Shown here piece after piece: positions 19,275-53,934 of a stretch of 64,000 nucleotides of DNA. The DNA comes from Arthrobacter antibioticus (GTDB taxonomy: Bacteria; Actinomycetota; Actinomycetes; Actinomycetales; Micrococcaceae), in NCBI RefSeq assembly GCF_030063205.1, contig NZ_JASISQ010000002.1, forward strand, positions 186,001 through 250,000, written 5' to 3'. Below the pieces are notes generated by a model, which worked only from the letters and a program-made list of their open reading frames with translations, did not search any database and had not been told where the DNA came from. Made by a program: the position numbers and the translations under genes. How positions within the stretch are numbered: position 1 is the stretch's first letter; the number at the start of each line of letters is the position of its first letter.

Positions 19275-19323
19275 GCCGCAGTTCAAAACCATATTTTATG
19301 GTTTTGAACTGCGGCTCTTTTTT
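19275..19323 (+). terminator. Terminator after tRNA-Lys
   Basis: A near-perfect 19-bp stem from GCCGCAGTTCAAAACCATA to its complement around a TTT loop, ending TCTTTTTT. Confidence 0.92.

Positions 19324-33287: not shown

Positions 33288-33311
<24 letters not shown>
33000..33311 (+). CDS. azlD: Branched-chain amino-acid exporter small subunit AzlD
   Basis: 103 residues with three to four hydrophobic helices; AVSYATKLLGYLVP at the start and the small Ala/Gly-rich C-terminal helices are typical. ATGA overlap with azlC shows coupling. The last 24 bases overlap the end of the convergent poly-Gln membrane protein gene. Confidence 0.9.
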
Positions 33312-33950
<639 letters not shown>

Positions 33951-35409: not shown

Positions 35410-36490
35410 TCAGGGGCGGGTGTCCGTCGTCGTACTTGGCGAAAGGCGCCCGCGCTTGCTCACGCGGACGCTGGATTCATCCACGAGAACAGCACGTTCC
35501 CGACCCTCGCCGCGCACCCATATTTTGTACGCGATGGTTAGCAGCACTAGCCAGACACCTCCCACATACAGGGCCACCCGTGTATCGGAGAACAAGCCCA
35601 ACAAAACGATCACGCCAAGCATGAATGCCCCGGTCAGTATCGATGCCGGGGGCCAAAAGGGGTTGGAAAATTCGATGGGGCAAGGCGCTTACGGCTGACT
35701 TCACGCTTCATAGCCACATGGGAGGCCAAAATCATCAGCCAGACTCAAACAGTGGCAAACGTGGCGATCGAGGCGATGAGTAGGAACACCTCTTGAGGGA
35801 TGGCGGCGTTGAGAACCACGCCGGCAAGCAACACCCCCGTTATGAGCACAACTCTCATCCACGGAACCCCTGAACGCGAAATTCTGCCAAATACGCTGGG
35901 GGCGTGACCCTGCTCAGGGAGCCCTAGGAGGACGCGGCCGGCACCAAAGGTATCGCTATTGACAGCGGAAAGAGCGGCGGTGATCACCACCGCGTTGAGG
36001 ATATGTGCGGCAAGGGGCATGCCCAACGAATCAAAGATCTGTACAAAGGGGCTAGTCTCGCCGGTGATTTCATTCCACGGGACCAAGCTCATAAGTATGC
36101 CGATTGTCAGCACGTAAAAAAGCAGGATGCGAACCGGAACGGTGTTGATGGCAGAAGGGATCGACCGGCCAGGATTTTCTGCCTCACCGGCGCTGACACC
36201 GATGGTCTCGATGCCACCAAAAGCAAACATGACCACAGCAAGTGAGGCCAGTAAGCCCACCCCTCCGTTGGGCACGAAGCCGCCGTAATCCACCAGGTTT
36301 CCCAATCCCGGGGTGGCTGAACCAGTGTCCAGATCGAAGCCCAGGACAATGATGGCAAGGCCGCCTGCGATCATGGCCATGATGGCTGCGACCTTGATGA
36401 GGGAGAACCAAAACTCCAGCTCACCAAAAACTCTCACGCTGAGCAGGTTGATGGCAGCCAAGAAGAAGATGATGGCGAGGACCCAGAGGA
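35410..36490 (-). pseudogene. Decayed APC-family amino-acid permease
   Basis: Remains of an amino-acid permease read on the minus strand. The middle part is intact ([28 protein letters not shown] ... [12 protein letters not shown] ... [11 protein letters not shown]). It then meets a TGA at 35745 where the family continues VWLMILASHVAMKREVSRK, which is still encoded in frame. A one-base frameshift near 35655–35665 precedes the C-terminal part (ILTGAFMLGVIVLLGLFSDTRVALYVGGVWLVLL). The N-terminal third is missing: homology stops at about 36488, just before the IclR gene. Being beside iclR and hutH, it was probably a histidine-pathway permease. Confidence 0.88.
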
Positions 36491-37413: not shown

Positions 37414-37481
37414 TGGTGCTCGGGGGTAGCTAATACTTTGTGCAGTACGTCCGCCACGGGCGAAAAGTATTAGCTACCCCC
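37414..37481. repeat. 68-bp palindromic repeat, copy 1
   Basis: Starts TGGTGCTCGGGGG and contains 18-bp complementary arms (GGGGGTAGCTAATACTTT and its complement) around a ~24-nt loop. It matches copy 2 at 65 of 68 positions, in the same orientation. The right arm contains the stop codon (minus-strand TAG, 37474–37476) of the AbiEi/DUF559-like gene. Confidence 0.95.
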
Positions 37482-38460
37482 TAGCCCCTGTCGTCGCCCG
37501 GATTGTTGAGGGCAACCCGGCCTCGGAGAGGAGCTGAGCCAGCCTCCGTGGATCTTTGAGGTCACGCCAAACCCACCGAACCACGTTGTAGCCTTTGGCG
37601 CGCAGGCGGTTCTCACGGTTCTTTTCAGTAACAACCACTTCAGATGGCGTCCTGCCTCGGAGGAATCGTTGATCTGAGTACTTTTCGTAGCCATCGAATT
37701 CACCTATCAACCTATATTCTTCCCAATGGAAATCTGTTCTTCCGATGAGTCCTTCTCGATCTGTAAAGAGACTCTGCAGGACTGGAAGTGGGAAGCCATA
37801 CTCGATCATGAAGGCCCGGCTGACAGATTCGCCAGGTGACTCGGAGTGTGGGTTTGCCACCTCCAATACGCGCAGAACTCGGCGACGTTGGACGCCATAG
37901 AGCAGCGTCGCCAGGCTGTCCTGAACGCTGGTTTCGGAAAAGGTCAGCTGGGTGTTGATGGGGGAGCCCGGCAGGATCTTTCGTTGCAGGAGGTAGTCCA
38001 TGGCTGGAAGCGATTCACTCAGTGGTAAACGCACGGCCAAATCACGCACTGTTTGCGGCGGTGGCGTTACCAGCAGACCGAACATCTCCCACGGTGGAGG
38101 ATCGCCGGCAACGGCACTGATCCGGTGAACTCCGTAGTTACTCTGCCCACCATTGTTATTGGGGGAGATCACCGTTTGGACTTCTTGGGGAATGCGTACC
38201 AGTGGAAGACCCATAATCTGGGCGGCAGACTCTCTGGCAAAAACCGGCGGATACTGAGCCAATTCATGGACGGCTTGAATTTTCATGCGGTATTTTTCCC
38301 AAGGTCTTAATGACTCCCACACCTCCGTGGGGAGATAGCACCCGCGCCGTACGCGGATCAAGGAGCCTTTCTTAGCTTGCTGAGCAAGACGCCTGGTGGA
38401 ATATTCGTCGGTGTATTTACTTGAGGCAGTAATAAACGGGGGCAGTAGAAAGTTCGTCAT
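37474..38460 (-). CDS. AbiEi-antitoxin-like N-terminus with DUF559-type nuclease-like C-terminus
   Basis: 328 residues. The N-terminal ~60 residues (STRRLAQQAKKGSLIRVRRGCYLP) form the winged-helix seen in AbiEi-type antitoxins. The C-terminal ~100 residues resemble the DUF559/Vsr-like PD-(D/E)XK group: GRTDFHWEEYRLIGEFDG, KYSDQRF, then EKNRENRLRAKGYNVVRWVWRDL. D...E-x-D and the following K/Y could be the metal site. No AbiEii toxin gene is next to it. Base composition is visibly more AT-rich than its neighbours. It is flanked by direct copies of a palindromic repeat, so probably a mobile or exchangeable cassette. Function unknown. Confidence 0.8.
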   Translation of the reverse strand: MTNFLLPPFITASSKYTDEYSTRRLAQQAKKGSLIRVRRGCYLPTEVWESLRPWEKYRMKIQAVHELAQYPPVFARESAAQIMGLPLVRIPQEVQTVISPNNNGGQSNYGVHRISAVAGDPPPWEMFGLLVTPPPQTVRDLAVRLPLSESLPAMDYLLQRKILPGSPINTQLTFSETSVQDSLATLLYGVQRRRVLRVLEVANPHSESPGESVSRAFMIEYGFPLPVLQSLFTDREGLIGRTDFHWEEYRLIGEFDGYEKYSDQRFLRGRTPSEVVVTEKNRENRLRAKGYNVVRWVWRDLKDPRRLAQLLSEAGLPSTIRATTGARG

Positions 38461-38584
38461 GTCTCAAGAATGGGAGGCGCCTGGCCGGCGGAACATGGAG
38501 ACCCACACGAATGTGGAAAACCTTGCCCGCTGTCCGGAGTGTGGAGGAGTGATTCCACAGAGCCGCCTTGGTGCTCGGGGGTAG
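38459..38584 (+). CDS. Possible 41-residue zinc-ribbon micro-protein
   Basis: Reads MSQEWEAPGRRNMETHTNVE then a CPECGG knuckle and VIPQSRLGARG. The ATG overlaps the divergent AbiEi-like ATG within one CATG. The last codons and the TAG stop lie in repeat copy 2. Only one CxxC pair is present, so a metal site would need a dimer or truncation. No ribosome site or TANNNT box is clear. It may be a real small protein, the remnant of a longer gene cut by the repeat, or chance. Confidence 0.35.
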   Translation: MSQEWEAPGRRNMETHTNVENLARCPECGGVIPQSRLGARG

Positions 38585-38636
38585 CTAATACTCTGTGCAG
38601 TACGTCTGCCACGTGCGAAAAGTATTAGCTACCCCC
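38569..38636. repeat. 68-bp palindromic repeat, copy 2
   Basis: 65/68 identical to copy 1. The stem is longer here: perfect 19-bp arms CTCGGGGGTAGCTAATACT and complement (outer end at 38639). The three mismatches to copy 1 are at the arm/loop boundary and in the loop. Confidence 0.95.
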
Positions 38637-38785
38637 GAGTGTTCAAAAGGGCACCGGTTGTGACAAAACCTACGCCAAGTTGCCATGTCTGGCATCCCGG
38701 ACAGCCTGCGCGTCAACGGGCAGATTTCGCTGCGGTTAAGCGCCATAGTTGAAGGCAAGAGCACTGCAACATAAAGGATTCCGCA

Positions 38786-53856: not shown

Positions 53857-53878
53857 AAATTCGGAGATCTTGCACAGA

Positions 53879-53934
53879 AATAACTGAGGCGCTTTGCTCC
53901 ATGAAATCCATGGAGCAAAGCGCCTCAGTTATTT
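53879..53934. terminator. Bidirectional terminator between usp and the NlpC/P60 gene
   Basis: Perfect ~25-bp arms (…AACTGAGGCGCTTTGCTCC and complement) with a 5-nt AAATC loop, A-run before and T-run after. It serves both convergent genes. Confidence 0.93.

Follow-up and report, generated by a model that had tools for sequence, protein, structure and literature searches.

A palindrome-flanked gene between iclR and hutH

The window, the whole 64-kb stretch of DNA analysed here, contains a gene for a 328-amino-acid protein enclosed by two copies of a palindromic repeat (Table 1). The 71-nt copies lie in direct orientation with 94% identity, and local alignment reproduces the 65 of 68 matching positions (95.6% over 68 nt) and shared orientation given in a preliminary description of this locus. 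Both copies form long hairpins, as that description stated, but the 18–19-bp arms it reported are slightly short for copy 1 (22 positions, 21 of them paired). From the coordinates, the stop codon of the gene falls within the copy 1 hairpin. The enclosed gene had been described as single, AT-richer and placed between iclR and hutH, and we find the same: its G+C content is 55.0% against 57.9% for the window, its neighbours are assigned by Pfam as iclR (IclR_C and HTH_IclR) and hutH (Lyase_aromatic), and the only other listed open reading frame inside the cassette is an 85-amino-acid antisense frame. The hutH gene shares 95.7% identity with its counterpart in an Arthrobacter plasmid record, which suggests an Arthrobacter-like actinobacterium. 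By sequence inspection, the window palindrome has no T-run.

Six hairpins scoring at least 16 occur in the window, compared with none in each of five mononucleotide shuffles. We also noted two more perfect long hairpins of other sequence, at 53878-53934 and 19275-19315, with arms of 26 and 19 bp. Judged by eye, the amino-acid permease reading frame adjoining iclR (35745-36461; 238 amino acids, TTG start) seems to be cut at its N terminus, and a small membrane-like protein (33288-33950) carries a long glutamine-rich repeat at its end.

Table 1 Features of the palindrome-flanked cassette, in window coordinates
Feature	Position	Strand	Description or basis
Palindromic repeat copy 1	37414..37484	+	3′ side of the gene
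Hairpin of copy 1	37418-37485		Arms 37418-37439 and 37464-37485; 21 of 22 positions paired
Gene for the 328-amino-acid protein	37474..38460	-	AbiEi-like winged helix and predicted PD-(D/E)xK (Vsr/DUF559/MTES_1575-like) nuclease domain
Codons for residues 208-298, conserved nuclease residues	37567..37839	-	S208, E211, R215, D243, E254, D256, G257, K260, E279, R282, E283, R295, W298; alignment of relatives
AbiEi_4-matched stretch, codons for residues 21-44	38329..38400	-	Pfam, E 0.0019, below the curated cut-off
Leader, 5′ palindrome to start codon	38461..38568	-	In relatives, spacing has a median near 150 nt
Palindromic repeat copy 2	38569..38639	+	5′ side of the gene
Hairpin of copy 2	38574-38639		Arms 38574-38592 and 38621-38639; 19 of 19 positions paired

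An AbiEi-like winged helix joined to a predicted nuclease domain

The preliminary description of the protein as an antitoxin-like winged helix joined to a nuclease-like end is supported by AbiEi matches in Pfam and PADLOC and by a motif conserved in relatives. Pfam matches of the window protein itself are weak (AbiEi_4, 18.7 bits against a cut-off of 25), and the nuclease assignment leans on the relatives and the motif; the match to the PADLOC AbiEi model has an E value of 2.3e-5. Among 59 relatives compared with Pfam, 43 matched AbiEi_4, 20 matched REase_MTES_1575 (PF18741) and 13 matched DUF559 (PF04480). Across their alignment, A79, T137, D155, S208, E211, R215, G257, R282 and R295 are invariant and D243, E254, D256, K260 and E279 nearly so, with D243, E254, D256 and K260 conserved in at least 90%. 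We take the conserved D, E and K residues to represent the PD-(D/E)xK arrangement, and the protein family retains the presumed catalytic D, E and K of a Vsr/DUF559-like nuclease. A single-sequence AlphaFold model of the protein reached a pLDDT of 34, and a PDB sequence search gave no significant match.

The earlier statement that a transposase is absent also agrees with Pfam: the window protein and its 59 relatives matched only AbiEi_4, REase_MTES_1575 and DUF559, and no transposase family or HUH/tyrosine transposase domain was found. In two close pairs of genes, dN and dS were 0.032 and 0.177, and 0.046 and 0.218; dN lies far below dS, indicating that the protein is under purifying selection.

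Matched palindromes flank homologues across the genus and phylum

Homologues of the gene are present in all 23 genomes of the genus, at 4-12 matches per genome, a count in which some genes appear twice because their match is broken in two, and in 114 of 296 genomes across the phylum. We scored a locus as paired when it carried matched hairpins of at least 60% identity or a direct repeat between its flanks of at least 30 nt with E below 1e-5. Matched repeats, mostly palindromic, stood on both sides of 45 of 68 genus homologues, which are related to each other and so do not count as independent events, and of 16 of the 29 best-scoring homologues examined across the phylum (10 via hairpins). As controls we took 260 genes from the window and from 20 arbitrarily chosen stretches of 20 kb; none was flanked in this way. 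No matched pair was detected at 23 of the 68 genus and 13 of the 29 phylum homologues. The hairpin rule by itself captures 27 of the 45 passing genus homologues, and an earlier hairpin-only count gave 27 of 69 homologues against 0 of 267 controls. Four of 42 direct-repeat genus loci (L038, L045, L054 and L069) are without self-complementarity. The genus set comprises the best-scoring rows and mainly the rows of single-contig genomes, part of a longer list; it was reduced from 72 loci by dropping a strain duplicate (L022) and three loci cut by contig ends (L025, L029 and L035), and includes the near-duplicates L060/L083 and L017/L044.

The flanking palindromes are alike within a locus and unlike those of other loci, with hairpin identities of 0.81 within and 0.55 between loci. 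Palindromes change faster than proteins, yet track them: protein and palindrome similarity are correlated over 50 loci (Mantel r 0.31), a value reached in 0 of 2000 permutations. Median distances are 150 nt from the end of the 5′ palindrome to the start of homology and 26 nt from the end of homology to the 3′ palindrome. The direct orientation emphasized in the preliminary description holds for the window pair but is not general, 13 of 26 matched pairs aligning better as direct repeats, 7 as inverted repeats and 6 equally well as either.

L060 and L083 (G021:C1:15259 and 4356001) are cassettes with the same palindromes, located close to the two opposite ends of a single 4.36-Mb contig; one of the two frames carries a stop, and the arrangement may be an assembly overlap or a duplication. 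A search of contigs with a single protein returned one locus, L110, from a record titled Sporosarcina beigongshangi, presumably a name from another phylum; the assembly is possibly contaminated or misnamed.

Gain and loss of the cassette between relatives

Of the 23 genus genomes, 5 (from 4 species) carry the gene between iclR and hutH and 16 have iclR followed by hutH without it, which supports a palindrome-ended cassette that is gained or lost. In the other two genomes, a galactanase-like gene (named by eye) adjoins hutH instead; no matched pair was found beside it in the 1.5 kb examined, which ends before that gene's far side. A search with the repeat recovered gene-free copies related to it, at 73-83% identity, at three other places in the window's own genome (C20:73118, C14:76406 and C16:175712), and a single match, in one genus member, among 57 other genomes (21 from the genus). 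The repeat thus recurs without the gene, and the gene is carried by some relatives and not by all, unlike the pattern that would have spoken against the preliminary description. Comparison of the iclR–hutH interval across strains, which the preliminary description had put forward as informative, yielded one long hairpin in 4 of the 16 gene-free intervals (G020, G002, G008 and G007). These solo hairpins resemble palindromes of their own genome's homologues elsewhere, at 90% in G002, 81% in G008 and 78% in G007, and by eye in G020.

The same description had tentatively linked the locus to defence, likening it to a hypervariable slot in which defence genes are swapped by recombination between the repeats. 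This appears highly improbable. Although PADLOC models for AbiEi score the AbiEi-like half and the gene is slightly richer in A+T than its surroundings, no other palindrome-flanked gene was seen at iclR–hutH in the 23 genomes, in a search centred mainly on one gene family, and no AbiEii nucleotidyltransferase lies beside the window gene, whose neighbours are iclR and hutH. Nothing was found to connect the gene with phage defence: the 50,697 phage records searched contained no match, none of 24 pattern matches in one profile scan of viral contigs was confirmed, and 72,556 plasmid records gave 2 weak matches. On the occupancy of the site (AbiEi-like gene in 5, no gene in 16 and another neighbour in 2 of 23 genomes), we rejected a defence slot at iclR–hutH.

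Members of the window subfamily (rows of at least 48% identity) number one or two per genome and occupy two loci, iclR–hutH and a second conserved locus. At the latter, the G018 cassette (L028) is absent from G009, in which flanks 90% and 85% identical are separated by 73 bp, and in G004 about 106 bp lie between the flank matches. Neither site contains the gene or a hairpin. The absence of the whole cassette from these empty sites indicates that palindrome, gene and palindrome form one unit. Loss of the 3′ palindrome in G009 (L242) relative to G018 (L237) looks like a deletion, as part of an arm remains.

Solo hairpins at four iclR–hutH sites where other genomes hold the cassette could be viewed as homing targets, which the nuclease would cut and into which repair would copy the gene, leaving a palindrome on each side. 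In some cassettes, moreover, the direct repeat continues into neighbouring sequence (88 nt in L023 and 109 nt in L024), as if palindrome and neighbour had been duplicated. Homing would nonetheless be quite unlikely: the second-locus empty site has no hairpin, and one or two subfamily members per genome against many palindromes is the reverse of what efficient homing would give.

A palindrome by itself also differs between close genomes. In G008 (L310:7130-7195), 60 nt lie between TCC and GGA, where G007 (L309) reads TCCGGA, the flanks being about 95% identical. The difference reads as a blunt 60-nt insert at the TCC^GGA centre or as 56 nt with CCGG on each side; the first reading, in which an insert splits a 6-bp palindrome in the middle, agrees with the palindromic flanks of solo copies described below. 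In this comparison of two genomes, the difference could also reflect precise loss from G007, through slippage between two CCGG at the hairpin base. G007 and G008 are 96% identical at the hutH locus and most compared palindrome copies are common to both; one G007 site has two copies against one in G008, which is not a clean insertion, and for copy L229 of G007 the stretches compared contain no partner. A further site in these genomes appears rearranged: at about positions 1500-1570, a single G008 site (L232) combines left flanks that belong to two separate sites in G007 (L219 and L225), each left flank ending at a palindrome, so that palindromes lie at the breakpoints.

Dispersed gene-free palindromes

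The palindromes of several homologues recur as gene-free copies, which are concentrated in the genome that carries the matching gene. The palindrome of a G002 gene occurs at 18 places in G002 among 40 in all, flanking copies included; 12 of the others are in G005 and 10 in G007, G008, G001 and G019 together, and the other 17 of the 23 genomes hold no copy. A palindrome from G014, queried with 45 nt of its sequence, has 9 of its 24 places in G014. The copies in G005 match none of the palindromes found beside the G005 genes examined. A second palindrome family in the window's genome, G000, belongs to the palindrome-flanked homologue L018 and occupies 10 places there, of which two are at contig ends, and 9 places in G058. 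G000 and G058, strains of the window species, showed no difference at the 8 L018-family places that could be paired. The contig ends concerned, G000:C17:1-49 and G000:C20:1-40, lie within the palindrome, and L018-family repeats therefore seem to break assemblies.

Solo units have sharp borders and are 60 nt long; their arms and centre are constant, and the inner part varies. By eye, units are mostly 50-74 nt long and end in GGGGG..CCCCC or in an A-run and T-run, the latter for example in the L263 family. Across 19 aligned copies, pair changes on both sides of the stem were seen in 15 cells compared with 5.3 after shuffling, exceeding all 500 shuffles; template switching from arm to arm could produce such compensatory changes without selection. 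In 23 solo copies, direct flank matches, as expected of a target-site duplication, averaged 0.83 nt against 0.61 nt in shuffled flanks (92 of 1000 shuffles as high), and the palindromic character of the flanks exceeded that of shuffled flanks (2.0 against 1.1 nt, with 0 of 1000 shuffles as high). A search of Rfam gave only sub-threshold matches. We further noted by eye that in close genomes (L210/L211 and L271/L272) an asymmetric palindrome centre seems to be inverted in place with its flanks conserved, and that a relE-like reading frame (named by eye) in G007:C95 (L154:1880-2115) has a palindrome at its end, as though inserted there.

Crude gene prediction placed 12 of 25 solo copies between convergent genes, 10 between co-directional genes, 2 inside a predicted reading frame and none between divergent genes, with 1 unassigned. 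The bias towards convergent gene ends would suit an explanation in which the palindromes are sites of winged-helix autoregulation and bidirectional terminators and the protein acts otherwise, for instance as a defence or repair nuclease, copies having spread by ordinary recombination and been retained as terminators. AbiEi is reported to bind a long inverted repeat and repress its own promoter (PMC3985639), and the A-runs and T-runs of families such as L263 would also agree with termination. We nevertheless consider this operator and terminator explanation rather unlikely: the window palindrome lacks a T-run, matched pairs are absent from all 260 controls, operators need not be near-identical 60-nt units at 18 places, and the cassette is present or absent together with both palindromes.

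A candidate palindrome-and-nuclease system

We conclude that 37414-38639 is probably one cassette of an Actinomycetota-wide palindrome-and-nuclease system that resembles a REPtron, with a Vsr-like nuclease in the place of the RAYT transposase. In such a system, the winged helix would recognize the genome's own palindrome much as AbiEi does a long inverted repeat; that AbiEi binds inverted repeats in its promoter makes recognition of the flanking palindrome a reasonable inference. The nuclease might then nick or cut the palindrome once it is extruded as a hairpin or cruciform, and repair or replication could copy it as a non-autonomous unit of about 60 nt, the whole cassette being copied more rarely. 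Gene-end sites would be the destination, where the copy might enter a short palindromic target at its centre. Mobilization by the protein is a proposal drawn from sequence, and we infer from distribution only that the protein would cut the palindrome, copy it to other sites and move the cassette.

We count in favour of this interpretation the matched pairs, the higher hairpin identity within loci, the occurrence of homologues across the phylum, the dispersed copies, the four solo hairpins at iclR–hutH, the empty site, the solo unit, the Mantel correlation, the stem covariation, dN below dS and the reported binding of inverted repeats by AbiEi; against it we count the places shared by G000 and G058, the possible precise deletion in G007, the copies in G005, the lack of a clear target-site duplication in the group, the unpaired homologues, the weak Pfam matches of the window protein and possible template switching between stem arms. 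A stronger claim, which we hold to be evenly balanced, is that these genes represent a separate palindrome-dispersing class, in which a winged-helix PD-(D/E)xK nuclease recognizes its own hairpin and copies it to the centres of short palindromic targets, with several pairs per genome in one genus, each with its own palindrome and under purifying selection.

Many genomes are strewn with short palindromic repeats, whose spread is tied to HUH transposases (RAYTs) in the papers cited below. If the interpretation is correct, a second, unrelated enzyme class would live with its own palindromes across a phylum, implying that this lifestyle arose more than once; it would account for many actinobacterial repeats and solitary AbiEi-like annotations and would offer simple gene–palindrome pairs for biochemistry. 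Caution is warranted in annotation, as defence-finding models (PADLOC) score these genes as AbiEi. Among the matches listed in a search of the open PMC literature, which leaves subscription papers outside, none links this gene family to palindromic repeats. To our knowledge, no described enzyme–repeat pair has this enzyme class and repeat.

Comparison with known systems

The cassette shares with the AbiE type IV toxin–antitoxin system a predicted AbiEi-type N-terminal winged helix and an inverted repeat upstream, AbiEi being described as binding inverted repeats in its own promoter in the cited text (PMC3985639). It differs in that the window cassette has no adjacent AbiEii, a nuclease domain follows the helix, and the palindromes stand on both sides and are also dispersed. 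Similarity to DUF559/MTES_1575 Vsr-like restriction endonucleases is seen in relatives that match PF04480 and PF18741 and retain the presumed catalytic residues. The known MTES_1575 domain, by contrast, is given as a Vsr-family endonuclease domain that came from a very long protein, a HEPN/helicase fusion (PMC3710099), in a paper whose main text does not contain the word stem palindrom-. Unlike insertion sequences and MITEs, the cassettes have no transposase family in the 59 proteins compared with Pfam.

The closest likeness is to REPtrons. RAYT genes are described as flanked by GTAG repeats (PMC3733652), co-evolution of TnpAREP with REPs has been reported (PMC8266576), and for the CGTC class of REPs the text cited reports no dedicated transposase (PMC3733652). 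Like REPtrons, the cassettes combine a palindrome-flanked gene, dispersed copies, pairs that change together and a location at gene ends. In contrast to REPtrons, the cassette enzyme is a winged helix with a predicted PD-(D/E)xK nuclease, with no HUH/tyrosine transposase domain found; the palindromes are mostly 50-74 nt long, compared with 20-40 nt for REPs; and the units, by eye, have no unpaired GTAG or CGTC foot tag. The cassette would therefore work like a REPtron but is not one, because its enzyme is unrelated.
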